Below are positions 6,103 to 27,988 of a stretch of DNA of 38,281 bases, piece by piece. Location: assembly GCA_902785905.1 (NCBI GenBank), contig CADAAM010000053.1:1-38281 (forward strand), written 5' to 3'. The first letter of the stretch is position 1. Each line of letters opens with the position of its first letter. The notes under the pieces are model-generated. The model saw only the letters and a program-made list of their open reading frames with translations. It did no database searches and was not told the origin of the DNA. The position numbers were made by a program, and so were the translations under genes. The stretch comes from Oscillospiraceae bacterium (GTDB lineage Bacteria > Bacillota > Clostridia > Oscillospirales > Oscillospiraceae).

Positions 6103-6290
6103 GCGCCGCGCCCGGTGTAAGAAAGAAAAGGGCCGCTGGACGCGGGTATTGTTTCTCATGTCCGAAGTTTTCTCTCGCGGATAACGCGCATCACACAGCT
6201 CTGCCCGCAAGTGGTATACGTTCCTGCGTCACGCCGACCGCGGAAGGCTTCGCTTACGCTCGCGCCGCTAAGTGGGCGTATATTTCATAC

Positions 6291-6445
6291 TATCCCCTAA
6301 TAGAAACCCGACAGCCCTTCCGGCAAAATTTGCGCCATGCTGCGTTGAAGCCCTTGACCATTTATCTCCATTATGCTCTGCGGGCTTCGCCTTGCCTGAC
6401 ACAAATTTTGCTCGGAATTCCTTGTCTGCTTTCTATCAGGGAATC
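6291..6445. repeat. MITE-like long imperfect inverted repeat
   Basis: Left arm (about 6291-6352) and right arm (about 6383-6445) are imperfect inverted copies over ~60 bp: CCCTAATAGAAA against CCCTGATAGAAA, TTCCGGCAAAATTTG against TTCCGAGCAAAATTTG, GTTGAAGCCC against GGCGAAGCCC. No protein-coding content is seen. It occupies the centre of the 552-bp gap 6006-6557, the rest of which (apart from the hairpin at 6066-6102) shows nothing recognisable. Confidence 0.6.
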
Positions 6446-6557
6446 GTATTGCCGCCTGTTTTGTAAGTGTGAGCAGGATTCTTTTCCACTCAGAAATCGC
6501 AGCCAATGTCTTTCGCGTGAAAAAAAACAAAATTTTTATTACAGGAGAAAATTCAAA

Positions 6558-15891: not shown

Positions 15892-15972
15892 CGATCAACT
15901 CAATACTGATGTGCCAAGAAAATGTTGTGTCTTGATTTAACATCAATAGTATCTGCGCTTTCGGAGGTTTTA

Positions 15973-16122
15973 TACTGGTCTCCCATAAAACGGCTTAAAG
16001 CCGTTTTATAGCGCCAAAGGCGCGTCGGAGACCTATGAGACGTGTTTTGTGCCCAAGGGCACAAAAGCGCGCTTTGCGCGATGCCTTTTCGTTAAAACGA
16101 GCCGTTTTAACGAAAAACAGTA
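15973..16122. mobile_element. TACTG-CAGTA modular hairpin element, copy 1 (full form, 150 bp)
   Basis: Terminal inverted repeat TACTG / CAGTA, flanked on both sides by TTA (15970-15972 and 16123-16125), a 3-bp target duplication. Inside, in order: GGTCTCC paired with GGAGACC enclosing ATAAAACGGC-TTAAA-GCCGTTTTAT and GCGCC-AAA-GGCGC; then TTTTGTGCCC-AA-GGGCACAAAA; GCGCGC-TTT-GCGCG; and TTTTCGTTAAAACG-AGC-CGTTTTAACGAAAA. It encodes no protein, so it would be mobilised in trans. It lies upstream of the PAP2 promoter. Confidence 0.78.
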
Positions 16123-16157
16123 TTAGTCAATAAAGGCTGGCGTTTTTTCGCTGTCTG

Positions 16158-16166
16158 TGCTATACT
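16158..16166 (+). promoter_or_regulatory. Extended -10 promoter of the PAP2 gene
   Basis: TGC followed by TATACT (16161-16166), an extended -10 element, 31 bp before the start codon. No good -35 hexamer is seen (the expected position reads GCGTTT), as is usual for extended -10 promoters. Confidence 0.5.
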
Positions 16167-16197
16167 GTCAGCACTTTTACTGATAGAGGTACACACT

Positions 16198-16842
16198 ATG
16201 GAAATCAACGCCCCCGCGCTGTGGCTCAACGACTTCTTTGCCGGTTTCGACGAGTCGATCACCCTGGCCGTCCATAAGCTCTATACACTCGCAGGCGGCT
16301 TCTTTACTCCCTTCTTTGAGGGGGTCTCCGTCCTCGGCAAGGGCGGCATCTTCCTGATCCTGCTCTCGGCTCTGCTGATGCTCTACCGCCCGACGCGGCG
16401 CTTCGGCACGTCGATGCTGCTGGGCCTCACGATCGGCTTTGCCATCACGAATCTGTTCTTGAAGGTCGCGATTGCAAGACCCCGGCCCTATACCGACACG
16501 GACAGCGTTTTCTATCAATTGTGGCTGACGGTCAACCAGCACACGGAGAGCGACAAGAGCTTTCCCTCCGGCCATATGACTGCCGCCTGCGCCAGCATGA
16601 TACCGCTTGTCATTCTCGCCAGACCCTGGCAGAAGCTTCTGGCCGCCCTGTTTGCGATCCTGATGGGCCTTTCGCGGATTTACCTCTGCGTCCACTTCCC
16701 GAGCGACGTGCTCGGTGGTCTGATCGTCGGCCTCTTCGCGGGCAGCCTCGCGGTGCTGATCGCGCAGAAGCTCCCGCGCGGCTGGTATCAGTGGGATTTT
16801 GCAAGGAAGAAGCAGCCCGCAGGCAAGCACGAACTGCAATAA
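16198..16842 (+). CDS. PAP2 superfamily membrane phosphatase
   Basis: 214 residues with five or six membrane segments. The three catalytic motifs of the lipid phosphatase / acid phosphatase superfamily are intact: KVAIARPRP, SFPSGHM (catalytic His) and SRIYLCVHFPSDVLGG. Enzymes of this type in Firmicutes dephosphorylate phosphatidylglycerol phosphate or undecaprenyl pyrophosphate, so it may act beside UppP (21913-22746) in carrier-lipid recycling, but the substrate is not decided by sequence. The C-terminus is a basic cytoplasmic tail. AGAGGT lies eight bases before the ATG. The gene is monocistronic, with its own promoter and hairpin end. Confidence 0.9.
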   Translation: MEINAPALWLNDFFAGFDESITLAVHKLYTLAGGFFTPFFEGVSVLGKGGIFLILLSALLMLYRPTRRFGTSMLLGLTIGFAITNLFLKVAIARPRPYTDTDSVFYQLWLTVNQHTESDKSFPSGHMTAACASMIPLVILARPWQKLLAALFAILMGLSRIYLCVHFPSDVLGGLIVGLFAGSLAVLIAQKLPRGWYQWDFARKKQPAGKHELQ

Positions 16843-16846
16843 ACAA

Positions 16847-16875
16847 TCGCCCCGCCGCACGATGCGGCGGGGCGA
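16847..16875 (+). terminator. GC-rich terminator-like hairpin after the PAP2 gene
   Basis: A perfect 13-bp stem: TCGCCCCGCCGCA (16847-16859), CGA loop, TGCGGCGGGGCGA (16863-16875), starting 5 bp after the stop codon. The T-run after it is short (AGTTTAT), partly replaced by mobile element copy 2, which begins seven bases on. Confidence 0.75.
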
Positions 16876-16881
16876 AGTTTA

Positions 16882-16986
16882 TACTGGTCTCCCATAAAAC
16901 GGCTTAAAGCCGTTTTATAGCGCCAAAGGCGCGTCGGAGACCTATGAGACGTGTTTTGTGCCCAAGGGCACAAACGAAAAACAGTA
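16882..16986. mobile_element. TACTG-CAGTA modular hairpin element, copy 2 (105 bp, short form)
   Basis: Identical to copy 1 from TACTGG through the GGGCACAAA block, then jumps to CGAAAAACAGTA, lacking 45 bp (the GCGCGC hairpin and most of the CGTTAAAACG hairpin). TTA flanks both ends (16879-16881 and 16987-16989). The right-hand TTA is, on the minus strand, the TAA stop codon of rqcH. The element therefore abuts that gene exactly at its stop codon. Confidence 0.8.
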
Positions 16987-18711
16987 TTATTTCACTCTCA
17001 GCTTCCTGACCAGCTCCTCGTCGCTCTCGACGGTGATGGTCCTGTAGTCGGTGTAGATCACCTTGCCGGGCAGGGAGCCGGAGGGCTTGCGGACAAATCT
17101 GAGCATCGTGTAGTCCACCGGGAGCTTCCCGCCGCCGCGACCCTGTGAGTAGTAGGCCGCAATGACCGCCGCCTCCGTGAGGCAGCGCTCCGACGGTGCC
17201 TCGCCCTCGCAGCGGACGATCACATGGCTGCCGTGGATTTTCTGCGTGTGCAGCCAGTAGTCCGTGCGGCGGCCGATTTTGGTCGTGAGCTCATCGTTTT
17301 GCAGATTGCTGCGCCCGACCAGAATCTCCCGCCCGTCCGTGGACAGGAAGCGCAGCGGGGCCTGGGCCCTGTTCTTCTCCTGCTTTCTGCCGCCGGAGGG
17401 CTTCACATAGCCGGTCTCGATCAGCTCGCGCCGCAGATCGGACAGATCCTTCTCCGTCTCGGCAGCTCCGATCAGCTCCAGCACGCTGCTGAGATAATCA
17501 AGCTGCTCCTCGCCGTCCGCGATCAGCTTCGTCAGATGCTCGGACGCCGCCTTGCGCTTGTTGTAGTCTTTGAACATGGCGGCGGCGTTCTGCTGCGGGG
17601 TCTTGAGTGGGTCGAGGGCGATCTCGATCTCGGGGCAGTCGTCCTGATAGTAATCCTGGCAGACGAGCCTTGCGTCCCCTTTTTTGAGCTTATACAGGTT
17701 GGCCGTGATGAGCTCCGCCGTCTTGCGGATGCTCTCGCGGTCTTCGCTTTTGGAAAGCTCCGCGCGCTGGGCGATCAGCTTTCGCTGCTGGCGGTCGCGC
17801 AGGGTGCGCACGGTCTTCTGCAGCTCATGCCCGCGCCGCCGCTGCTGCTCCAGCCTGTCACGGCCGGAATAGAACTCGTCGAGCAGGGCGGAAAAGCTCT
17901 CGCATTCCTCACAGCGAAGGCGATCCCCGTACTGATTGAGGCGCATGAAGCTGAAGTCCGCCGGCTTCTTTCCGTCGTAATAGAGATAGGGGCGCAGCTC
18001 CCCGGCCCGGACGCTCTCACAGAAGGCGTCCAGCACCAGCGGCAGGAGCGTCCAGTCACCGCCGCAGCGGAAGGCGAGCTCCCGGCACGCAAGCGGCGAG
18101 AGGCCAGCAAAAGAATCCAGCAGCCACTTGTCGATAGGCTGTGACTTGTCCGCCGCGTCGATCATCGCGCGCAGCGTCTGCATCTCACATTCGAGCAGGG
18201 CGGGCTTAACCTGCCTCGGCGGTTCGCGGTAGAACAGGCCGGGCAGCATACGCCGCAGCGCGTCCCCGCCGAAGTCCATGCGCCGCATACAGTCCACGAT
18301 GCGCCCGTCACTGTCCACGAGGATGAGATTGGCGCTGCGTCCGATGAGCTCCGCAACCAGGGTCTTGCGCCCCTCCACGCCGAGCTCGTCCCTTGTCTCA
18401 AGCTCGATTTTGAGCATGCGCTCAAAGCGCGGCTGCGTGACAGACAGGATGCGCGCGCCGATCAGGTGCTTCCGCAGCAGCATGCAGAACATGGGCGGCT
18501 CCGCGGGGTTTTCAAAGGGCATCTTCGTAAAGTGTACCCGGGCGTTCCCGGTCCCGGCGGCAATCAGCAGGCGGCGGTTTTCCCCTTTTGCGCGCAGGGA
18601 GAACAGCACCATGTCCCGCTCCGGCTGCTGAATCTTGTCGATCTTCGCGCCCTCCAGCTCCGCCGCCAGCTCCTTTGCCAGCGCGGACAGGCATATCGCG
18701 TCAAGGGGCAT
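16987..18711 (-). CDS. rqcH: Rqc2/NEMF homologue RqcH (NFACT family), ribosome quality control
   Basis: 574 residues, the usual length. NFACT-N domain from MPLDAICLSALAKEL with the usual QPERDMVLF and PPMFCMLLRKHLIGARI segments; helix-hairpin and coiled-coil centre (about 290-420); C-terminal NFACT-R domain with RFLSTDGREILVGRSNLQND, HGSHVIVRC and VDYTMLRFVRKPSGSLPGKVIY. RqcH binds obstructed 50S subunits and adds alanine tails to stalled peptides. The functional Asp-Arg pair of the family (residues 97-98) is Glu-Arg here. Its GGAGG site lies inside the end of mrnC, three bases upstream. Its TAA stop is the target triplet of mobile element copy 2. Confidence 0.92.
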   Translation of the reverse strand: MPLDAICLSALAKELAAELEGAKIDKIQQPERDMVLFSLRAKGENRRLLIAAGTGNARVHFTKMPFENPAEPPMFCMLLRKHLIGARILSVTQPRFERMLKIELETRDELGVEGRKTLVAELIGRSANLILVDSDGRIVDCMRRMDFGGDALRRMLPGLFYREPPRQVKPALLECEMQTLRAMIDAADKSQPIDKWLLDSFAGLSPLACRELAFRCGGDWTLLPLVLDAFCESVRAGELRPYLYYDGKKPADFSFMRLNQYGDRLRCEECESFSALLDEFYSGRDRLEQQRRRGHELQKTVRTLRDRQQRKLIAQRAELSKSEDRESIRKTAELITANLYKLKKGDARLVCQDYYQDDCPEIEIALDPLKTPQQNAAAMFKDYNKRKAASEHLTKLIADGEEQLDYLSSVLELIGAAETEKDLSDLRRELIETGYVKPSGGRKQEKNRAQAPLRFLSTDGREILVGRSNLQNDELTTKIGRRTDYWLHTQKIHGSHVIVRCEGEAPSERCLTEAAVIAAYYSQGRGGGKLPVDYTMLRFVRKPSGSLPGKVIYTDYRTITVESDEELVRKLRVK

Positions 18712-18714
18712 GTC

Positions 18715-19113
18715 TCATTCCTCCATAATGGCGTTAAAGAGCGCTTCGACCCGCTCCGTCTTCCCCTGCAGGTACAGCCACCCGAAGAGGGCCTCAAGGC
18801 CAGTCGCCGCGTGGTACTGGGCGATCTCCGCGTGGTGGGGCGCGGAGTTGACCTTCGTGTTGCGCCCGCGCTTGTAGACGGCAAGCTCGTCCTCGGAAAG
18901 CAGGGGCAGGATCTTCTTCACGGCCTCGGCCTGAGCCTCCGCCCTCACCTTCTCCACCGTGAGGCGATGGAGCTTGACGACGGCGGCATTTTTCTCCCGG
19001 CAGAGCATGGAACGCACCAACAGCTCATACACCGCGTCCCCCACATGGGCGAGGGCCAGCATGTTCAGTTGGTTGACCTCCCGCTCGGAGAGCTGCTGGA
19101 ACAGGCTTTGCAT
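18715..19113 (-). CDS. mrnC: Mini-ribonuclease III
   Basis: 132 residues, typical length. It has the RNase III catalytic helix LAHVGDAVYELLVRSML (the metal-binding Asp in GDAVYE) and the second acidic site near LEALFGWLYLQG, without a double-stranded RNA-binding domain, which defines Mini-III. In Bacillus subtilis this enzyme matures 23S rRNA. GGAGGAATACCT lies just before the ATG. It is followed by rqcH with a three-base gap, so both belong to one RNA-metabolism unit downstream of ftsK. Confidence 0.92.
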   Translation of the reverse strand: MQSLFQQLSEREVNQLNMLALAHVGDAVYELLVRSMLCREKNAAVVKLHRLTVEKVRAEAQAEAVKKILPLLSEDELAVYKRGRNTKVNSAPHHAEIAQYHAATGLEALFGWLYLQGKTERVEALFNAIMEE

Positions 19114-19135
19114 AGGTATTCCTCCAAAAACTGTT

Positions 19136-19219
19136 CGTAGGGGCCGATGCCCTCATCAGCCCGCCGTTTTGCGTCTGTGTGCGTCGCTCGGCGGGTCGAT
19201 CTGGGGATCGACCCCTACG
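19136..19219. repeat. CGTAGGGG-type palindromic repeat between ftsK and mrnC
   Basis: Outer arms CGTAGGGGCCGATGCCC (19136-19152) and GGGGATCGACCCCTACG (19203-19219) are inverted with 14 of 17 positions matching; inner arms CCCGCCG (19160-19166) and CGGCGGG (19189-19195) pair perfectly. It is an 84-bp hairpin typical of dispersed palindromic repeats in Oscillospiraceae-like genomes. It lies eight bases after the ftsK stop codon and may limit read-through into mrnC-rqcH or protect the ftsK mRNA end. Confidence 0.65.
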
Positions 19220-19227
19220 GGTATAAA

Positions 19228-21891
19228 TCAATTCTCAAACGATGCGTCGGCGTCCTCGCTCATACCGGCGGCAAGGGCCATGTCGTCTCCGCCCAGACCG
19301 TACTGGCGGCGGATCTCCTCCCAGCCCGCGCGGTCCACGATCACGGAGCGGGGCTTCGCCCCCTCGTAGGGGCCGACGACGCCGATCTCCTCCATCTGGT
19401 CGACGATACGCGCGGCGCGGGAGTAGCCGAGCTTGATGCGCCTTTGCAGCATGGACACTGAGCAGGACTTGGTCTCCAGCACGACCTCCACCGCCTGGGG
19501 CAGCATATCGTCGTAGCCGGATCCGCCGCCCTTCTCCTCCTTGGAGGAGGCGCCGGAATCGCCGCCGTTCTTGTCCTCGGCCGCCTTGTTCATAAACTCC
19601 TCGATCTCGGTGTTGCGCTGGCTCTCGCCGGTGTTCTCCTTGATGAACTGGATGATGTCCTCTCTCTCCTCGTCCGAGACATAGGCGCCCTGGATGCGGA
19701 TGGGCTTGCCCACGCCGACCGGGGAGAAGAGCATATCGCCCATGCCGATGAGCTTTTCCGCGCCGCCCTGGTCCAGGATGATGCGGCTTTCGAGCGTGGA
19801 CGAGACGGCGAATGCGATGCGCGAGGGGATGTTCGCCTTCATCAGGCCCGTGATAACGTCGGCGGAGGGGCGCTGCGTCGCGATGACGAGGTGCATGCCG
19901 GCGGCGCGGCCCATCTGGGCGACGCGGCAGATGCTCTCCTCCACGTCCTTGGAGGCAATCATCATCAAATCGGCCAGCTCGTCGATCACGATGACGACCT
20001 GGGGCAGCGTCGGCTCGCCCGCCTTGAGACAGTGCTTGTTGTAGTTTTCCAGATCGCGCACACCGACCTCGGAGAAGGAGCGGTAGCGCTTGAGCATTTC
20101 GACCACCGACCACTGCAGAGCGCCCGCGGCCTTCTTCGGATCGGTCACGACGGGGACATAGAGGTGCGGGATGCCGTTGTAGATGCCGAGCTCGACCATC
20201 TTCGGGTCGATCATAATGAGCTTGACCTCGTCCGGCCGCGCCTTGTAGAGCAGCGACAGGATCAGCGAGTTCATACACACGGATTTGCCGGAGCCGGTGG
20301 TTCCCGCAATCAGCAGGTGCGGCAGCTTGGCGATGTTGCCGACGATGCCCTCGCCGCTGATGTCCTTGCCGATGGCGAAGCTGAGCTTGGACTTGGCGGT
20401 CGCAAACTTCGGCGTGTCAATGATGTCGCGCAGGCAGACAGTGCTGACGATCTTGTTCGGCACCTCGATGCCGACGGTGGAAATTTTCTCCGGGATCGGC
20501 GCGATGCGCACGTTCACGACGCCGAGGGCCAGGGCCAGATCGCCCGCGAGGTTTGTCACGCGTGAGAGCTTCACGCCCTGCTCGAGCTCGATGTCATAGC
20601 GCGTGACCGTGGGGCCGCGCGTCACGCCGACGATGCCGGCAGCGATGCCGAAGCTGTGCAGCGCCCCCTCGAGGCGCTCCTTGTTGACCAGGATCTCTTC
20701 CCGCGAATCGCCCGCAGTCGCCGTGCTGCTGCGCAGCAGATCGACCGGCGGGAAAGCGTAGTCCGGCGCGTCCTCGGTGGCCTTGATGGCGTTGGAGACG
20801 GCCTGGGTCTCGGCGCTGAGTTCTTCCCGGCTCATGCGCTGCTTCGGGGGATCGGAGATCTCGGCGGAGACCTTGGCCGCGCGGGAGGGCTTCACGCTCA
20901 CGCCCTTGTCGGCCTTCTTCGCGCGCGTCGACGCCTTGGCCTCGTCGTAGGCCTTGAGATCAATACCCGCGATGGCGGCGGCCTCCTCGGTGCTCAGAGG
21001 CTTGACGTCGTCGGTCGGCCGCTCGTTGATGACGGTGATCTTCGGAGCGCGCCGGGGCTTCGGCTCCGGCTCCTCCGCGCCCGGGAAGCTGTCCTTGTCG
21101 ATCTTCGGCTGTTTCGCGGGCTTCTCCTTCAGCAGACTCATGGCATCGTCGTCCCCGAGCGGAATATCCGTGCTGTAGGCGGCGTCGCGCTGCACGCGCT
21201 CGATCCGGCGCTGCTTGCTCGCCTGGATGTTGTTCGCGACGGCGGTGATGGGCGTGAGGGAGTTTTCGTACAGGGAGGGGTCGTACTGGCCCTGCATCTG
21301 AATCTTGACCTTCTCGGCGGTCTTCTTCATGCTGCCGCTGCACGCATAGACACCGCAGACCAGGGTCAGCACGATGAGCACGGGCAGAGCCCCGTAGATG
21401 CTCAGCGCGCTTTCCAGCCCCACGGCGAGCAGGCCGCCGAAGACGCCCGCGCTGTCAAGATTCTGGCCGTGCTCGAACAGGAGATCGGCCATGTCCATGA
21501 TGTCCGCGCTGCCGAAAGCGTACTCCTTTTCCAGCAGGCTCACGATCGCGGCGACGAAGATGGGGACCACAAACGCGCAGAAGCTCCTGAGCGCGACGGG
21601 TCTGCCCCGGTGGAAAAACAGGATGTACGAGATCAGCAGGAAGGTCGGCGCGGCGAGCCAGTAGCCCCAGCCGGCAAAGCCCTTGATGAGTCCGGAGAAG
21701 AACTGCACAAAGGCCCCCTCGTCCCGAAAATAGCTGATCGCGATCACAAGCGTCAGGAAAAGGAAGAAGACCCCGCCGATCTCCCGGCGGATCGGAACCA
21801 CCGGCTCGGGCGGCATCTCCTGCTTGGGGCTGGACCTTTTTGCGGGCGCTTTCTTTGTTGTTTTCTTGGATGTGCTCTTACTGTTTGCCAT
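19228..21891 (-). CDS. ftsK: DNA translocase FtsK/SpoIIIE
   Basis: 887 residues. N-terminal Lys-rich tail, four or five membrane segments (about 38-185), an acidic/proline-rich linker (about 190-400), then the motor: alpha/beta domains with TRGPTVTRYDIELEQGVK, Walker A GTTGSGKS at about residue 528, Walker B VVIVIDELADLMM, and the C-terminal gamma winged helix (SMLQRRIKLGYSRAARIVDQME) that reads orienting DNA motifs. It pumps chromosomal DNA through the division or sporulation septum. The ATG follows AAAGGAAA by eight bases, 21 bp after uppP, so both are probably co-transcribed. The linker is longer than in Bacillus SpoIIIE (787 residues). Confidence 0.95.
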   Translation of the reverse strand: MANSKSTSKKTTKKAPAKRSSPKQEMPPEPVVPIRREIGGVFFLFLTLVIAISYFRDEGAFVQFFSGLIKGFAGWGYWLAAPTFLLISYILFFHRGRPVALRSFCAFVVPIFVAAIVSLLEKEYAFGSADIMDMADLLFEHGQNLDSAGVFGGLLAVGLESALSIYGALPVLIVLTLVCGVYACSGSMKKTAEKVKIQMQGQYDPSLYENSLTPITAVANNIQASKQRRIERVQRDAAYSTDIPLGDDDAMSLLKEKPAKQPKIDKDSFPGAEEPEPKPRRAPKITVINERPTDDVKPLSTEEAAAIAGIDLKAYDEAKASTRAKKADKGVSVKPSRAAKVSAEISDPPKQRMSREELSAETQAVSNAIKATEDAPDYAFPPVDLLRSSTATAGDSREEILVNKERLEGALHSFGIAAGIVGVTRGPTVTRYDIELEQGVKLSRVTNLAGDLALALGVVNVRIAPIPEKISTVGIEVPNKIVSTVCLRDIIDTPKFATAKSKLSFAIGKDISGEGIVGNIAKLPHLLIAGTTGSGKSVCMNSLILSLLYKARPDEVKLIMIDPKMVELGIYNGIPHLYVPVVTDPKKAAGALQWSVVEMLKRYRSFSEVGVRDLENYNKHCLKAGEPTLPQVVIVIDELADLMMIASKDVEESICRVAQMGRAAGMHLVIATQRPSADVITGLMKANIPSRIAFAVSSTLESRIILDQGGAEKLIGMGDMLFSPVGVGKPIRIQGAYVSDEEREDIIQFIKENTGESQRNTEIEEFMNKAAEDKNGGDSGASSKEEKGGGSGYDDMLPQAVEVVLETKSCSVSMLQRRIKLGYSRAARIVDQMEEIGVVGPYEGAKPRSVIVDRAGWEEIRRQYGLGGDDMALAAGMSEDADASFEN

Positions 21892-21912
21892 GAATATGTT
21901 TCCTTTCCAGGG

Positions 21913-22746
21913 TCAGAAAATCAGATGCAAAATAATTGACAATACGCCGACGACCCAGCAGTAATAGGAAAAGCCGCCGAATTTGCGCTTCCTGCTTATG
22001 TAGCGCAGAAGGTGGATACAGATGACGCCGCTGAGCATGGCGACTGCCGTTCCGACGAGGTAGGCGGGGACGCTCTGCCAGTCTATCCCCTCGCGAAACG
22101 CGTCGGCAAAGGAGAGGATGGCTGCGCCTAAGACGGCGGGGATGCTCAGCAAAAATGAGAAGGTCACCGCGAAGTCGCGCCGCAGCCCCGTGGCGATGCC
22201 CGCGGTGATGGTCACGGCGGAGCGGGACAGGCCGGGGATGGTCGCCACGCTCTGGCACAGGCCGATGATGAGCGCGTCAAACACGGTCATGCTCTTGTTG
22301 TTCTTGTTGCCCGGCAGCATTCTGTCCGAGACATAGAGCAGGCAGCCCGTCAGAATCAGCATCACGCCGATGAGGATGTTCCTGTCGTTGAGCGTCTCAA
22401 TCCGGGCATTCAGCGGCAGGGCCAGAAACAGCGGCAGCGTGCCGAGCAGGATCATGCAGAAGCAGCGCGCCGCCGGGTAGTGCGCCTGCTCATACCCCGC
22501 CAGGGGGCCGAGATTGGCGAAGGACAAGATTTCCCTCACCATGGCGCTGATTTCCGGCCAGTAGACGATGCACACCGAGATGATGGCCGCCACATGCAGC
22601 AGGGCCTGGAACAGGGCATGGCCGTCCGAGAGATTGGAGAGCTTGAAAAGGTTATTGACGATGGCAAGGTGTCCCGAGCCGGAGATCGGCAAAAACTCCG
22701 CGATCCCCTGGACCAGGCCCAGCAGCACCGCGTTCCATACCGTCAT
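21913..22746 (-). CDS. uppP: Undecaprenyl-diphosphate phosphatase (BacA/UppP)
   Basis: 277 residues, polytopic. The first catalytic motif, QGIAEFLPISGSGHL, and the second, PGLSRSAVTITAGIATGLRR, are those of the BacA family, which dephosphorylates undecaprenyl pyrophosphate to recycle the wall carrier lipid and gives bacitracin tolerance. The ATG at 22746 (MTVWNAV) is chosen because GGAGG is eight bases before it; the GTG at 22755 overlaps that site. In motif one, the usual SSSGHL is SGSGHL. It has its own promoter with an inverted repeat, and ftsK follows. Confidence 0.94.
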   Translation of the reverse strand: MTVWNAVLLGLVQGIAEFLPISGSGHLAIVNNLFKLSNLSDGHALFQALLHVAAIISVCIVYWPEISAMVREILSFANLGPLAGYEQAHYPAARCFCMILLGTLPLFLALPLNARIETLNDRNILIGVMLILTGCLLYVSDRMLPGNKNNKSMTVFDALIIGLCQSVATIPGLSRSAVTITAGIATGLRRDFAVTFSFLLSIPAVLGAAILSFADAFREGIDWQSVPAYLVGTAVAMLSGVICIHLLRYISRKRKFGGFSYYCWVVGVLSIILHLIF

Positions 22747-22764
22747 TTTCAGCACCTCCCAAAA

Positions 22765-22807
22765 GTATCATAAATGGTATGATACCACAAAGCAGCGATA
22801 AAAACAA
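22765..22807 (-). promoter_or_regulatory. uppP promoter overlapped by a 7-bp dyad
   Basis: On the minus strand: TTGTTT (22807-22802), 17-bp spacer, TATCAT (22784-22779) with an extended TGG. A perfect inverted repeat GTATCAT (22765-22771) / ATGATAC (22779-22785) covers the -10 and the start of transcription, as an operator would. Confidence 0.5.
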
Positions 22808-22828
22808 GGGCGATACCGCACAATTCCA

Positions 22829-23452
22829 TTACATCCCTGTCCGCTCGTGCAGATAGCGCAGGGCGTCGGAGAGGGTGCCGATCCCGTCGATCAGGCCCTC
22901 TTTGACCGCCTCGTGCCCGGTGAGGATGCTGCCCACGTCGTTTGCAAGCTGGGTGGTGTCCGCACTCAGGGCCTCAAAGCGCGCCTGCGTGATCTTTGAG
23001 TGCGCGGTCACGAAGGCGGTGATCCGCTCCTGCATCCGCGCGAGGTAGTCATAGGTCTGGGCGGCCCCGATCACCACGCCCGTAATGCGCACGGGATGGA
23101 CGGTCATGGACGCCGACGGCGCGATAAAGCTCCGGTCCGCCGAGACGGCCAGCGGCACGCCGATACTGTGCCCGCCGCCGAGAACGAGAGACGCGGTCGG
23201 CTTGCTCATGCCCGCGATCATCTCCGCGATGGCAAGGCCCGCCTCCACGTCCCCGCCCGCGGTGTTCAGCAGGATCAGCAGGGCCGTGATCTCCGGGGAC
23301 TCCTCGATCGCCGCGATCGTGGGCAGGATGTGCTCATATTTTGTGGTCTTCACGTCGTCCGGCAGGAGCTGATGCCCCTCGATCTGCCCGATGATGGTCA
23401 GGCAGTGGATGCCTCCCTGCCGCGTTTGACCACTCTCCCTGATGTCGTCCAT
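22829..23452 (-). CDS. ClpP-class serine protease, TepA-like
   Basis: 207 residues, ClpP/crotonase fold: LILLNTAGGDVEAGLAIAEMI (the ClpP NSPGG region), LGGGHSIGVPLAVSAD with the nucleophile Ser96, and MTVHPVR with His119. It resembles Bacillus TepA (YmfB), a membrane-associated ClpP-like protein found next to ftsK/spoIIIE, which fits the neighbourhood (uppP and ftsK follow). The target is unknown. No ATPase partner is encoded nearby. GGGGGGTGA precedes the ATG. Confidence 0.85.
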   Translation of the reverse strand: MDDIRESGQTRQGGIHCLTIIGQIEGHQLLPDDVKTTKYEHILPTIAAIEESPEITALLILLNTAGGDVEAGLAIAEMIAGMSKPTASLVLGGGHSIGVPLAVSADRSFIAPSASMTVHPVRITGVVIGAAQTYDYLARMQERITAFVTAHSKITQARFEALSADTTQLANDVGSILTGHEAVKEGLIDGIGTLSDALRYLHERTGM

Positions 23453-23504
23453 AGGCTCACCCCCCGGATAGTGTTGCCGGGAGATGGTATTCTTATCCGA
23501 AAGG

Positions 23505-23534
23505 AACTCCCGCCGGTTTGTACCGGCGGGAGTT
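23505..23534 (-). terminator. Terminator hairpin after the M18 aminopeptidase gene
   Basis: A perfect 12-bp stem, AACTCCCGCCGG (23505-23516) and CCGGCGGGAGTT (23523-23534), 6-nt loop. It begins 4 bp after the aminopeptidase stop on the minus strand, where the trailing sequence CCTTTCGG is a weak U-tract. It separates that operon from the tepA gene. Confidence 0.75.
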
Positions 23535-23537
23535 TTA

Positions 23538-24920
23538 TCAGTCGTCGCTGTAGGCGGCGAGGACGCCCTTGTAGGTCATGTAGCAGTCGAGCTTGGCGAC
23601 CAGCTCAAACGGGGCGTGCATGCTCAGCACCGGGACGCCCGCGTCGATGGTGTCGATGTTGCGGTTGGCCATGTAGAGGGCGATGGTACCGCCGCCGCCC
23701 TGGTCGACCTTGCCCATCTCGCCGAGCTGCCAGACCACGCCCGCCTTGTCGAAGAGGCGGCGCAGATAGGCCACCACCTCGGCGGAGGCGTCGCTTGTGC
23801 CGGACTTGCCGCGGGCGCCGGTAAACTTGGCGATGCCCATGCCGTAGTTGAGCTTGGCCTCGCTGCGCTTCTCGGAGACCTCGGGGTACAGGGGATCGAA
23901 GGCCGCCGTCACGTCCGCGGAGAGGCAGAAGCTCTTCTCAAAGCAGCGCCGGACCTCCACGTTCTGGGCCGCGCACAGGTCCTCCATAAAGGTGTCAAAG
24001 GCGCGGCTCTGCATACCGCTGACGCCGTCGGAGCCGGTCTCCTCCTTGTCGGCCAGGATGCACACGCAGGTGCGCACCGGGTTTTCCACGTCGAGGATGG
24101 CCTTGAGCTCGGCATAGGCGCAGACCCTGTCGTCGTGGCCGTAGCCGCCGATGAGGCTGCGGTCGAGACCCACCTCGCACACGTCGAAGGCGGGCACGGC
24201 GGTGAGCTCGGCGGACAGGAAGTCCTCCTCGCCGATGCCGTACATGTCGTTGAGTATGCTCATCACCGCGAGCTTGACGCGGTCCTTGCCGTCGTCGTCA
24301 TAGGGCACGGAGCCGATGAGGATGTTCAGCGCCTCGCCCGTGATGCCCTCGGTCATGGACTTCTTCATCTGATCTTTGGCCAGATGGGGCAGCAGGTCCG
24401 TGATGACGAAGCGGGGCTCGCCCGGCTCGCGCCCGATGCGGACGTCCACCGTCTCGCCGCTCTTGAGCACCACGACGCCGTGCAGCTCCAGCGGGATGGT
24501 GACCCACTGGTATTTCTTGATGCCGCCGTAGTAGTGCGTGCGGAAGTAGCAGAGCTCGTCCGACTCATACATCGGGATCTGCTTGAGGTCGAGGCGCGGG
24601 GCGTCCACGTGCGCGCCCGCGATCACCACGCCGTCGGCGAGGCTGCGCTGCCCGATCACGGCGAGCATCAGGGCCTTGCCGCGGTTGCAGCTGTAGAGCT
24701 TCATGCCGGGGGTGAGGGCCATGCCGGGGACGTACTCCACGAAGCCCTTCTCACGGGCGAGCTTGATGGCGTTGACAACAGCCTCGCGCTCGGTGCGGGA
24801 GTCGTTCAGGTATTCCATATAGCCGCGGCAGTAATCCTCGGCGGCGATATGCTCCTCGCGGGAGATGCGGTCGTAGCCGTTCTTCGGCTCATAAAACAGG
24901 TTCTTTCTCGGATCATCCAT
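23538..24920 (-). CDS. M18 family aminopeptidase (aspartyl aminopeptidase-like)
   Basis: 460 residues, full length for the family. The zinc-site motifs are in order: AGAHVDAPR (His104 and Asp106), IGGYGHDDRVCAY, DKEETGSDGVSGMQSR (catalytic Glu pair), SADVTAAFDP and, at the end, VLSMHAPFELVAKLDCY. M18 enzymes form large tetrahedral complexes in the cytosol and remove N-terminal acidic or hydrophobic residues from peptides. The start overlaps the stop of the TsaC-CoaE gene by eight bases, so it is the last gene of the prfA operon. A hairpin terminator follows. Confidence 0.92.
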   Translation of the reverse strand: MDDPRKNLFYEPKNGYDRISREEHIAAEDYCRGYMEYLNDSRTEREAVVNAIKLAREKGFVEYVPGMALTPGMKLYSCNRGKALMLAVIGQRSLADGVVIAGAHVDAPRLDLKQIPMYESDELCYFRTHYYGGIKKYQWVTIPLELHGVVVLKSGETVDVRIGREPGEPRFVITDLLPHLAKDQMKKSMTEGITGEALNILIGSVPYDDDGKDRVKLAVMSILNDMYGIGEEDFLSAELTAVPAFDVCEVGLDRSLIGGYGHDDRVCAYAELKAILDVENPVRTCVCILADKEETGSDGVSGMQSRAFDTFMEDLCAAQNVEVRRCFEKSFCLSADVTAAFDPLYPEVSEKRSEAKLNYGMGIAKFTGARGKSGTSDASAEVVAYLRRLFDKAGVVWQLGEMGKVDQGGGGTIALYMANRNIDTIDAGVPVLSMHAPFELVAKLDCYMTYKGVLAAYSDD

Positions 24921-26046
24921 GGTTCAGTATCTCCTTATACAGCCGACGGCAGTCCTCGCGGAAGCTCGGCGCTGCGGCAGCCTCGCGGCTGATACCGTCA
25001 CGCGCGGTGATGCGCTCAAGGCGGCGCTCCCGGTCGGCGAGTACCCCGATCACGGCGGTGCAGCGTCCGGCGATCCCGGCGGAGATGAGCTCCACCGCGT
25101 CGATGGCGGCGAGCGTCCCGCCCTTCATGGCGAAGTTTCGCAGGCGCCTGTCGACCTCGCGTCTGACGGCGCTGTGCGTGATCTCATTGAGTATTTCCAG
25201 CTTTTCCTTTGATGCAAAGACGATCCTGCCCAGCGCCCTGCGGTCGAGGACCCCGTCCCGGACCGTGCCGGGGAAGGCGCTGTCCAGGGCCGCGATCAGA
25301 TCCGCGTCGGTTTCCAGCAATTCGTGATACACCGCGTCGCAGTCGAGGGCCAGCGCGCCGAGGGCGGAGAGCTCCCGGAGCGCCGTGGTCTTTCCGCATC
25401 CGGAGGGCCCGGTCAGGCCGATCACGGTCATATCATCCGCCAGGGCGTCCGCAATCTCGGACTCCGGCAGCGCTCCCTCGCGCAGAACACGGTATGGCGT
25501 TTTGCTTACATCTATCAGCGTGGACTCGCGCCCGATGCCGCAGGGGCCGCCGTCGATCACCGCGTCGATTTTGCCGTCGAAGTAGGCCAGCACCTGTTCG
25601 GCGGTCTTGGGGCTCGGCTCTCCCGAGGGGTTGGCTGACGGGGCCGCGAGCGGCAGGCCGCATGTGCGCAGCAGCGCGAGCGTCAGCGGATGGTCCGGGC
25701 AGCGCAGGCCGACGGTACTTCCGCCCGCCAGGACAATGCCGGGAATATCGTTCTTCGCTTTCAGCACAATGGTCAGCGGCCCTGGCCAGAAGCGCTTCGC
25801 CAGCGCGTGGGCCTGCGGCGGCACATCCAGACAATAGCGCTCCATGGCGCTCTCGTCCGGGACCATGAGCGACAGCGGCTTAACGGAGGGCCGCCCCTTG
25901 ACCTCGTAGATCTCCGACACGGCCGCCTCATTCAGGCCGTTTCCCGCGAGGCCGTAGACCGTCTCGGTCGGCACCGCGACGAGGCCGCCGCTCCGGATAA
26001 TACGCGCGGCGTCTTCGATTTCGCTTGTTATCAGCTTTGTCTCCAT
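24913..26046 (-). CDS. tsaC: Fusion of threonylcarbamoyl-AMP synthase (TsaC/Sua5) and dephospho-CoA kinase (CoaE)
   Basis: 377 residues. Residues 1-205 are a YrdC/TsaC domain: IRSGGLVAVPTETVYGLAGN, VKGRPSVKPLSLMV, PLAAPSANPSGEPSPKTAEQ and GRESTLIDV. It makes threonylcarbamoyl-AMP for tRNA t6A37. Residues 206-377 are a CoaE domain: GLTGPSGCGKTTALREL (P-loop), ALDCDAVYHELL, DGVLDRRALGRIVF and ITARDGISREAA. CoaE phosphorylates dephospho-CoA in the last step of CoA synthesis. There is no stop codon between them. The CoaE part is short: after SREAAAA it goes straight to FREDCRRLYKEIL, lacking about 25-30 residues (the RI..Q...AD.VI.N region), so its activity is doubtful. GGAGGCATAA precedes the ATG, and the prfA stop codon abuts it with no gap. 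Confidence 0.88.
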   Translation of the reverse strand: METKLITSEIEDAARIIRSGGLVAVPTETVYGLAGNGLNEAAVSEIYEVKGRPSVKPLSLMVPDESAMERYCLDVPPQAHALAKRFWPGPLTIVLKAKNDIPGIVLAGGSTVGLRCPDHPLTLALLRTCGLPLAAPSANPSGEPSPKTAEQVLAYFDGKIDAVIDGGPCGIGRESTLIDVSKTPYRVLREGALPESEIADALADDMTVIGLTGPSGCGKTTALRELSALGALALDCDAVYHELLETDADLIAALDSAFPGTVRDGVLDRRALGRIVFASKEKLEILNEITHSAVRREVDRRLRNFAMKGGTLAAIDAVELISAGIAGRCTAVIGVLADRERRLERITARDGISREAAAAPSFREDCRRLYKEILNHG

Positions 26047-27092
26047 TTATGCCTCCGTCTGCGCCTGCAGCAGTTCCGCCTGCCGGGCGGTGACAAGGCT
26101 GTCGATCAGCGCATCCAGATTGCCGTTCATCACGGACTGGAGGTTGAAATTTTTTGCGTCCCCGCTGAGCCGGTGGTCGGTGACGCGGTTTTGCGGGAAG
26201 TTGTAGGTGCGTATCTTCTCGCTGCGGTCACCGGAGCCGATCTGGCTGCGCCGTTCGCTTGCGACGGCGGCGTGCTGCTTTGCCTGCTCGGCCTCATAGA
26301 GCTTGGCGCGCAGGATCTGCATGGCGCGGTCCTTGTTCTTATACTGGCTGCGCTCATCCTGGCACTCGACCACCGTGCCGGTGGGCAGGTGGGTGATGCG
26401 GATGGCGCTCTCGGTCTTGTTGACGTGCTGACCGCCCGCGCCGGAGGAGCGGTAGGTGTCGATTTTGAGATCGCCGGGGTCTAAATGGAAGTCGATCTCC
26501 TCCACCTCGGGCAGGACGGCGACGGTGGCGGCGGAGGTGTGGATGCGGCCGCCGGACTCCGTGACCGGGACGCGCTGGACGCGGTGCGGCCCGGCCTCAA
26601 ACTTGAGGCGGGACCAGGCCCCCTCGCCCTCCACGACAAAGCTGATCTCCTTGATGCCGCCGAGTCGATCTTCCAGCCCTTGGATTCGGCGTACATCGAG
26701 TACATGCGGAATAGGTCGGCCGCGAAGAGCATACCCTCCTCCCCGCCGACGCCGCCGCGTATCTCCATGATGACGTTTTTACCGTCGTTCGGGTCTTTCG
26801 GCAGCAGGAGAATTTTGATCTCCCGCTCAAGCCGTTCTCTGTCCTCCTTGGCGGAAGCGTATTCCTCCTGCGCAAGCTCCTTCATCTCGGGGTCGGACAT
26901 GAGCGAGACGGCCTCCTCCATGGCGGAGCAGGCCCGCATATGGGCGCGGTAGGCCGTTACAAGGGGCTCCAGCTCCCTTGCCTCGCGCTCATATCTCGAA
27001 TAGACGGCGGGATCGGAGTAGGTCTCCGGTTCCTCCATCCTGGCGCGCAGAAGATCATATTTATTATCAAGCTGCCTGAGTTTCTCAAACAT
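26047..27092 (-). pseudogene. prfA: Peptide chain release factor 1, with an internal deletion/frameshift
   Basis: The first part (27092 to about 26668) gives a normal RF1 N-terminus from [15 protein letters not shown] to AESKGWKID and includes [20 protein letters not shown]. The second part, in another frame, gives [20 protein letters not shown] and then [14 protein letters not shown], the GGQ motif in [15 protein letters not shown], and a normal C-terminus. At the join (about 26662-26668), some eight residues of the family (IIDSSETD-like) are missing and the frame changes: the gene is 1046 bp, not a multiple of three; a 25-nt loss would explain both. RF1 reads UAA/UAG and is normally essential, so this is an assembly error, a recent lesion in a mixed population or, less likely, recoding. 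It heads an operon with tsaC-coaE and the M18 gene. Confidence 0.88.
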
Positions 27093-27118
27093 GGTTGCAC
27101 TCTCCTAAATGACGGCAT

Positions 27119-27147
27119 ATTATACCACGCCGGTCCGGGAAAGTAAA
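27119..27147 (-). promoter_or_regulatory. Sigma-A promoter of the prfA operon
   Basis: Minus strand: TTTACT (27147-27142), exactly 17 bp, TATAAT (27124-27119), with TGG before the -10 as an extended element. It is 27 bp before the prfA start codon, which has AGGAGA nine bases upstream. Confidence 0.75.
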
Positions 27148-27155
27148 CCGCAAAA

Positions 27156-27211
27156 ACAGCGCCGCTGTCAGACGCTTTCCGGCAAATCCTCTGTTTGACG
27201 AACAGCGGCGC
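27156..27211. promoter_or_regulatory. Candidate operator: inverted repeats at the mntA-hepT promoter
   Basis: GCGCCGCTGT (27159-27168) and ACAGCGGCGC (27202-27211) are perfect 10-bp inverted repeats. The left arm is itself part of the palindrome ACAGC-GCC-GCTGT (27156-27168). The right arm sits in the spacer between the -35 and -10 of the mntA promoter, where a bound repressor would block transcription. Toxin-antitoxin pairs are often self-repressed; for MntA/HepT this is inference. Confidence 0.5.
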
Positions 27212-27223
27212 ATGGGTTATAAT
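27195..27223 (+). promoter_or_regulatory. Consensus sigma-A promoter of mntA-hepT
   Basis: TTGACG (27195-27200), 17-bp spacer, perfect TATAAT (27218-27223), 23 bp before the mntA start codon, which is preceded by AGGAGGGGG. Confidence 0.85.
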
Positions 27224-27246
27224 GATAAACAAAAGGAGGGGGCCAT

Positions 27247-27534
27247 ATGCTTACCGTACAGCAGATTGCGGACGGCGTTCATGTCGCATCGCGTGAGTAC
27301 CCGCTTCGCAAGGTGGAGCTGTTCGGCTCCTACGCCAGCGGAAAAAACACGCCGCAGAGCGACGTCGATCTTCTGGTGGAGTTTATGCAGCCCCGCGTGT
27401 CGCTGCTTACCATCAGCGCGCTGAAGGTCCGCATGGAAGAGCTGCTGGGTACGGACGTCGACATCGTCCACGGTCCCCTGCCGGAGGACGCCATGCTGGA
27501 ACTTGACAGGAGGATTCCGCTTTATGGAGCGTAG
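27247..27534 (+). CDS. mntA: MntA-type minimal nucleotidyltransferase antitoxin
   Basis: 95 residues. The nucleotidyltransferase motif GSX10DXD is exact (Gly27-Ser28, Asp39, Asp41, in LFGSYASGKNTPQSDVDLLV), followed by a second acidic strand VDIVHG. In the characterised type VII system, MntA adds AMP groups to the tyrosine of the HepT toxin and so inactivates it. The gene overlaps hepT by 11 bp, and the pair has its own strong promoter with inverted repeats. It stands between the divergent prfA operon and a mobile hairpin element. Confidence 0.9.
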   Translation: MLTVQQIADGVHVASREYPLRKVELFGSYASGKNTPQSDVDLLVEFMQPRVSLLTISALKVRMEELLGTDVDIVHGPLPEDAMLELDRRIPLYGA

Positions 27535-27853
27535 AGACCGTATTATTCTGCAAAAAGTGCTCAGTGAGATCGATATTGCACAGGAGATGATGGGCGGCTG
27601 CACACTGAAGCAGTTCAAAGGAAACGAAATGCTCATGCGCGCGGTGGGTATGACGGTCATCAACATCGGTGAGCTTGTCAAGAATCTCAGCGATGAAACA
27701 CGCCTTGCCTTCCCGCATATTCCCTGGAAAGCCATTGCCGGCTTCCGAGATGTCGCGGCGCACAAGTATCAGACCCTTCGCATGGAGGACGTATACGAAA
27801 CCGTTGTGACGGATTTTCCGACACTCAAACAGCAAATTGAACAGATCCTGTAA
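27524..27853 (+). CDS. hepT: HepT-type RNase toxin (HEPN domain)
   Basis: 109 residues, all-helical HEPN fold. The catalytic RX4HXY motif is intact (Arg75, His80, Tyr82 in FRDVAAHKYQT); the tyrosine is the AMPylation target of MntA in the described system. The preceding NIGELVKNLSDETRLAFPHIPWKAI is the DUF86 family's signature. HepT cleaves RNA when free of its antitoxin. The ATG at 27524 is preceded by AGGAGG at ten bases; a longer upstream frame lies inside mntA and is rejected. The TAA stop begins a TAATACTG sequence identical to the end of the mobile element that follows. Confidence 0.9.
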   Translation: MERRDRIILQKVLSEIDIAQEMMGGCTLKQFKGNEMLMRAVGMTVINIGELVKNLSDETRLAFPHIPWKAIAGFRDVAAHKYQTLRMEDVYETVVTDFPTLKQQIEQIL

Positions 27854-27870
27854 TACTGTTTCTTGATTAA

Positions 27871-27977
27871 TACTGTTTTTCGTTAAAACGGCTCGTTTTA
27901 ACGAAAAGGCATCGCGCAAAGCGCGCTGCCAGTTTTGTGCCCTCGGGCACAAAACACGTCTCATAGGGAGACCAGTA
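27871..27977. mobile_element. TACTG-CAGTA modular hairpin element, copy 3 (107 bp, reverse orientation)
   Basis: Reverse orientation relative to copies 1 and 2. TAA flanks both ends (27868-27870 and 27978-27980), the reverse complement of the TTA seen at the others. It has the CGTTAAAACG, GCGCGC and GGGCACAAAA hairpins but lacks the 47-bp block with the two hairpins enclosed by GGTCTCC/GGAGACC; five extra bases CTGGC (in the copy-1 sense) follow the GGGCACAAAA hairpin. A partial extra end, TAATACTGTTT, lies 17 bp upstream, where its TAA is the stop codon of hepT (27851-27853). Confidence 0.8.
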
Positions 27978-27988
27978 TAAAGTCTATC

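Follow-up and report, generated by a model that had tools for sequence, protein, structure and literature searches.

Short hairpin elements that duplicate a T-N-A target occur at stop codons above background in an Oscillospiraceae genome

Introduction

How do mobile hairpin elements come to lie exactly on the stop codons of genes whose proteins they leave unchanged? The question is raised by a 38,281-nucleotide stretch of DNA from an Oscillospiraceae bacterium, contig CADAAM010000053.1 (C53) of assembly GCA_902785905.1, which we call the window. An earlier note, made from the sequence of the window, described three non-coding elements with ends TACTG/CAGTA, each between 3-bp direct repeats (TTA/TTA twice and TAA/TAA for the inverted copy), and proposed a mobile family of hairpins that targets TTA and can use a gene's stop codon as target site. 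The coordinates, ends and repeats of all three copies proved exact (Table 1), and the triplet at copy 2 is indeed the TAA stop (16987-16989) of the NFACT/RqcH gene. We refer to these elements as family A. The assembly (G000) has a size of 2.73 Mb in 191 contigs and is rated 85% complete; for comparison we used G094, a sister species of the same genus with 92-96% identity around copy 2. Taken as a whole, the data are probably best explained by non-autonomous elements resembling miniature inverted-repeat transposable elements (MITEs) that duplicate a T-N-A (TNA) triplet, with selection and an insertion preference together producing an excess at stop codons.

Results

Target duplication and mobility of the A family

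Copies of A were gathered in the assembly by using the 150-bp copy and the two ends as queries and then fetching stretches; copies lacking one end, or meeting contig ends or N, were kept outside the count. This gave 33 complete copies of 49-157 bp. The flanking triplet is identical on the two sides in 33/33, and it is TCA in 16 copies, TTA in 15, TGA in one and TAA in one. Because the middle base varies yet always matches, this is a true target duplication with the rule T-N-A, mostly T-pyrimidine-A in the orientation of the element. TCA is as frequent as TTA, which rules out the TTA-only target that had been proposed. At A sites positions -1 and -2 are T-rich (19/33 and 16/33).

G094 was searched with the two flanks of each of the 33 sites joined together; 11 sites could be aligned across the junction and the other 22 were unusable. 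Matches ending within 14 bases of the junction (e.g. L006, L025, L047), dispersed repeats (L005, L010) and a weak match (L030) were not accepted as empty sites. Nine of the 11 aligned sites are empty in G094 and have a single triplet, as the note's check in a relative had anticipated; copies 1 and 2 are among the elements with an empty site, each with one TTA. The triplet is the same at seven of the nine sites, and the TCG for TCA and TTA for TCA seen at one site each are read as later substitutions. The 49-bp A copy on contig C105 is common to both genomes. At the location of copy 3, next to a HepT-like gene (the hepT site), G094 has an A derivative with another deletion, and after it comes a repeat whose ends are GGCAACACC. 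Together, the matching triplets, the further families described below and the empty sites support the idea of a mobile hairpin family with a 3-bp duplication.

Several features are those of MITEs. The A elements are short, lack coding capacity and occur as many near-identical dispersed copies; terminal inverted repeats are present, short in A (TACTG/CAGTA) and about 11 bp and covarying in a second family, D; and the target duplication in 33/33 copies is accompanied by precise empty sites at 9/11 positions in G094.

Contact with stop codons

Genes were called with a purpose-written codon-usage caller, the final training of which used 334 called genes. In 13 of the 33 complete A copies the triplet serves as the in-frame stop codon for a called gene, and in 12 of these 13 the gene is antisense to the element. 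As background, stops account for 342 of 3455 stop-or-intergenic T-pyrimidine-A sites (9.9%). Copies of D in other species gave a similar picture: 17 of 39 with equal TNA triplets lie at stops, 16 of them with open reading frames (ORFs) of at least 80 aa, against 96 stops among 1067 sites in the same loci (9.0%, p=1.2e-8). For D copies of 161-162 bp the count is 16/33. No two of the 39 copies have common flanks. The D loci were genus matches returned as loci plus hand-chosen stretches, fetched along with some A loci (40 stretches), and 30 BLAST matches to any family that had no recognisable ends were left out. After duplicates had been removed by their 12-bp flanks, relatives held 12 class-I copies with equal triplets, of which 5 lie at stops. 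The A and D counts over background rule out chance contact, so the predicted excess holds (13/33 and 17/39 versus 9-10% of stop-plus-noncoding TNA sites).

The insertion rate per TNA site is highest at the stop codon itself (Table 2; this genome's sample was the background for both families). Stops against all intergenic sites gave 30:37 compared with a background of 340:3099 (p=4e-13), and stops against the next 30 bp gave 30:9 compared with 340:385 (p=2e-4).

Table 2. Insertions per 1000 TNA sites by position relative to genes
Position	A	D
Stop	38	50
1-30 bp downstream	10	13
31-60 bp	7.6	7.6
61-100 bp	2.9	11.5
Other intergenic	5.7	3.3
Last 30 bp of gene	0	4.3
Other coding	0.07	0.15

All nine stop genes that could be compared have a G094 orthologue whose end falls at the same codon position. 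This rules out, for these nine genes, that the stops were created by insertion, and it agrees with the earlier proposal that insertion into a stop leaves the protein end in place. Some C-terminal residues differ among the orthologues, and one stop is TAA in G094 where it is TGA here. Eight of the nine orthologous stops have no element directly after them; for five of these both flanks align, which makes them full empty sites, and three (L006, L025, L047) rest on the gene side. Genes with elements directly after the stop include those for NFACT/RqcH, serine dehydratase alpha, pyruvate kinase and electron transfer flavoprotein (ETF) alpha, all of housekeeping type.

Related families and the hairpin plan

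A scan of 630 kb (overlaps counted) for equal TNA triplets around TACT...AGTA showed that this genome holds other families as well, namely B (TACTAGAACCTC...), C (TACTGATTTTCA...) and the 161-bp foldback D. All three follow the end and target rule of A. D has matches in at least 59 of 102 genus genomes. The A-type pattern was found in 13 matching stretches, all in assemblies titled Clostridiales, Clostridia, Ruminococcaceae or Oscillospiraceae, and 12 of the 13 bear RUG/RUI isolate names, which we take to denote rumen genomes. Three patterns tried on viral contigs had no match, and the D element had none in phages and plasmids.

Families A, B and C have a common hairpin plan with a ATGAGACGT motif (one ATGGGACGT and one ATGAGACGC among 13 aligned sequences). 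In these 13 sequences double changes affect 24 of 49 pairs, where shuffles gave 13.0 on average, and 0/500 shuffles reached the alignment's covariation score. In the long right helix, 26 cells show double changes and none of the 174 cells counted is a G-U pair; the lack of G-U pairs suggests that this helix is kept up at the DNA level. Outer pairs 5-11 of D also covary (44 copies). The Rfam 15 covariance models gave no match at gathering score in the window, and five loci yielded only five weak hits, with scores well under that threshold. At two loci (L077 11971-12287 and L154 4184-4481) a B element sits inside a C element, both times at the same TCA within the conserved motif of C. At L152 311-1266 (G121:C79) a called 235-aa ORF lies between two D copies of the same orientation, one just upstream of the ORF start region and one exactly on the stop codon, an arrangement that is possibly a composite cassette.

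Internal deletions are found in 24 of the 33 A copies; 23 are distinct, and 22 show 0-2 bp of microhomology. On the 156-bp form, 13/24 begin at 91-97 (including the 6-bp deletion of copy 1) and 7/24 end at 59-61, as if a nuclease had cut at the base of the central hairpin. The central module is kept in all A copies except the 49-bp one, and the central hairpin is hardly ever lost. Some truncations that extend into the flanks also begin close to these deletion boundaries. Because the deletions at the hepT site differ between the two species, A deletions seem to arise after insertion, the alternative being separate insertions at one site.

Discussion

Causes of the excess at stop codons

In the mechanism that we propose, an enzyme acting in trans would join the short ends, TACT...AGTA by the bases of the hairpins, to a T-N-A triplet opened by a cut staggered by 3 bp. 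Because TAA and TGA stops are themselves T-N-A triplets, insertion at either would regenerate the stop at the junction. The stop excess would then combine the effect of purifying selection with that of a real insertion preference for stop codons or the ends of genes.

Two simple causes do not suffice. Between convergent genes the ratio of stop to other insertions is 9:6 compared with a background of 83:590 (p=1.6e-5), which rules out promoter avoidance as the sole cause. The base preference in the 8 bp to either side would give 7.7% or 13% stops, which rules out local base context as a sufficient one. Purifying selection alone is harder to set aside. If insertion were blind among TNA sites and copies survived where they are harmless, the stop would be the safest TNA in a compact genome. 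The 'other coding' class is almost without copies (1/33 A, 2/39 D); since the interior of genes is nearly free of them, selection does act. The weaker enrichment between tandem genes (4:8 versus 182:1587, p=0.03) is also in keeping with it. However, by arithmetic from the counts, selection alone could give the observed share of stops only if no more than about 13% of all intergenic TNA sites tolerated a copy; the figure is 27% for sites 1-30 bp downstream of stops and 9% for sites between convergent genes. Because convergent regions should be promoter-free, a tolerance of about 9% is severe. We regard selection alone as a possible, though somewhat doubtful, account.

Another candidate for the true target is the intrinsic terminator, as a hairpin or T-tract, to which the stop would be the nearest TNA. 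Terminator-like hairpins can be seen by eye in many flanks, and folding of flanks was above background in three of four comparisons (stop left p=0.018, stop right p=0.027, non-stop right p=0.002) but not on the non-stop left (p=0.14). Yet the stop excess appears both with a hairpin within 20 bp (12 stop:13 other) and without one (18:29), the background stop fractions being 0.119 and 0.093, and weighting by left hairpins predicts 2.6 stop insertions where 12 were observed. The split counts and the weighting largely refute the terminator hairpin as main target, and we consider the idea very improbable. Copies beside stops might instead be retained by positive selection if they benefit the host at gene ends through mRNA 3'-end protection or termination. 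Strong hairpins immediately 3' of the stop and the 49-bp copy shared with G094 fit such retention. By contrast, for 8/9 of the stop copies tested no element was found behind the orthologous stop of G094, which makes most of them look young, and a scan for terminator-like patterns inside copy 1 gave only 5-pair matches; retention by benefit thus appears unlikely. Least plausible, to our minds, is that a reverse transcriptase copies the elements as mobile structured RNAs and that template skipping causes the deletions and one-sided truncations. The many distinct deletions with ends clustered near hairpin bases would fit this, as would the left-truncated copies with intact right ends. However, right-truncated copies also exist in RUG674 (L119, L128), so polar truncation was dropped as a sign of reverse transcription; the differing deletions at the hepT site suggest deletion after insertion, and the long right helix without G-U pairs points to upkeep at the level of DNA.

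We favour a real insertion preference acting together with selection. Several points weigh against this reading. The preference is deduced from surviving copies, which selection has already filtered. All stop calls depend on the purpose-written gene caller, and two of the 13 A stop ORFs have only 37 and 39 aa, leaving 11 without them. In D, equal triplets are absent from 29 of 68 two-ended copies, which were left out and of which 8 are at a stop, and the way in which ends were located gave preference to equal triplets within 14 bp. In the A/B/C alignment, further pair types are no more numerous than in shuffles (211/500). No coding element with A ends was found in the assembly, and the ends beyond TACT differ between families, which is odd for one enzyme. 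A more specific version, in which the machinery recognises gene ends, in effect stop codons (e.g. by coupling to terminating ribosomes or the end of transcription), duplicates TAA or TGA and acts on foldback DNA with a nearly free stem sequence, seems to us rather unlikely as it stands.

If the preference acts at insertion, these elements would follow a harm-avoiding target rule that hits the most harmless triplet of a gene, and they would offer a principle for adding DNA at gene ends with proteins unchanged. Even if selection explains the excess, the family is a natural assay of non-coding sites that tolerate insertion. Whichever cause holds, it shows mobile hairpins placed directly after the stops of housekeeping-type genes.

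Search for a mobilising enzyme

Exact A left ends occur at 35 places in the assembly, and each has a right end within 260 bp or meets a contig end. A looser scan for end pairs in 1.4 Mb (overlaps counted) gave five pairs, none recognised as a transposon, with the ORFs of L152 and L018 lying outside the family-library scan. The insertion sequence (IS) with the same ends that the earlier note had suggested looking for was not seen in this 85% complete assembly, where several copies end contigs. Because no coding IS sharing the ends was seen, we call the elements MITE-like only. Metagenome assemblies readily lose insertion sequences that occur in many copies, so the absence of the enzyme is weak evidence.

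An IS5-group transposase acting in trans, as suggested earlier, could not be confirmed. The DUF4096 transposase (PF13340) that would mark an IS5/IS1031 derivative had no match here, and across the genus it was present in 5 of 102 genomes. PF01609 matched in five of nine genomes searched, with two matches here, one being the L157 gene between GGGCAACACCGCAC-type ends. DDE_Tnp_4 (PF13359), the transposase that would point to a PIF/Harbinger or ISL2-like derivative if it had TACT ends, matched in 5/102 genomes with weak scores, and its match in this genome is again the L157 gene, which looks IS5-like and has ends other than TACT. No linked DDE transposase was found by PF13340, PF01609 and PF13359, other transposase families and reverse transcriptases not having been searched. 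A transposase gene plus short repeats with GGCAACACCGCAC ends and TTA(A)-like sites were observed at L157 1073-2162, L219 1341-1500 and L033 660-885; the one at L219 lies next to an A element, the one at L157 next to B-family sequence. IS5-type GGCAACACC repeats were tried as a selection control and set aside, as they number 7 copies only, with TTAA-like flanks. A candidate 2.1-kb element in L142 was rejected, its ORFs looking by eye like ordinary genes.

Y1_Tnp matches were present in 10 of 12 genomes searched, and several of the genes resemble by eye those of REP-associated tyrosine transposases (RAYTs; REP, repetitive extragenic palindromic sequence). Only 1/26 loci held one of seven library elements, and RAYT was rejected as mobiliser. 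REPs moved by RAYTs lack a target duplication and have a GTAG-type tag at the hairpin base; A elements show the TNA duplication in 33/33 copies and a base tag of TACT/AGTA and so are not of this kind. A true target duplication also argues against Y1 chemistry. Y1_Tnp genes at L172, L178, L179 and L184 (G021, G091, G088, G017) contain in-frame repeat-like peptides (RGDPCGRP, VGALHEAPA, ARATARVAPT), apparently repeats inserted within the transposase genes themselves.

Comparison with known systems

We recognised no description of a bacterial mobile element that prefers stop codons in the literature searched, which left most subscription papers outside reach. Group IIC introns insert near terminators at gene ends, use a reverse transcriptase, are larger ribozymes and make no target duplication. 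Set against this general description, introns themselves not having been searched for, the present elements are alike in gene-end insertion and unlike in their TNA duplication.

Bacterial MITEs (PMC10969869) are likewise short and non-coding, with inverted ends, target duplications, mostly intergenic positions and nested insertions; here, A has shared ends of only 4-5 bp, the hairpins covary, no partner IS was found and the stop excess is strong. The words 'stop codon' do not occur in the main text of that review by word search. QMITE1 and QMITE2 of Coxiella burnetii (PMC5896051) have copies that overlap or abut gene 3' ends, but QMITE2 makes variable repeats of 7-11 nt and one copy extends a protein, whereas the 3-bp TNA here keeps the stop. 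GTAG REPs (PMC3733652) are also high-copy hairpin repeats, and their ends often provide a TAG stop to flanking ORFs. This is the nearest precedent seen in these sources; there the repeat itself gives the TAG, whereas here the target duplication regenerates TAA or TGA. PIF/Harbinger, other PHIS groups and IS5 elements (PMC4482050) make similar 3-bp TWA or TNA duplications; the elements here use TCA and TGA besides TTA and TAA, and no linked DDE transposase was found.

Elements and host genes in the window

The features of the window are listed in Table 1. The earlier note had described the TAA stop of the HepT-like gene as joined to a partial element end. A remnant is present there, but it belongs to a different family: the stop is followed by TACTGTTTCTTGAT, which matches the B-family end (cf. 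L077 12057-12214), then by TAA and copy 3.

Table 1. Elements and host genes in the window
Feature	Position	Strand	Remarks
Old D-family element	6288-6448		161-bp foldback; left TCA (6285-6287), right TTG; no matching repeat
A-family copy 1	15973-16122	+	150 bp; 6-bp internal deletion relative to the 156-bp form; TTA duplications 15970-15972 and 16123-16125
A-family copy 2	16882-16986	+	105 bp; right-side internal deletion; TTA duplications 16879-16881 and 16987-16989
Right TTA duplication of copy 2 = TAA stop codon of NFACT/RqcH gene	16987-16989	-	G094 orthologue stops at same codon
NFACT/RqcH gene	16987-18711	-	574 aa; Pfam NFACT_N E=3.7e-123; stop = target triplet
HepT-like gene	27524-27853	+	E=3.7e-19; TAA stop 27851-27853 abuts B remnant
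B-family end remnant	27854-27867	+	14 bp; directly 3' of HepT-like stop; present in G094 too
A-family copy 3	27871-27977	-	107 bp, inverted; left-side internal deletion; TAA duplications on + strand 27868-27870 and 27978-27980

Between a PAP2 gene and copy 2 there is a strong hairpin (16847-16875) with a terminator-like pattern on both strands. This is likely to have been the native 3' end common to the PAP2 and NFACT/RqcH genes before insertion.

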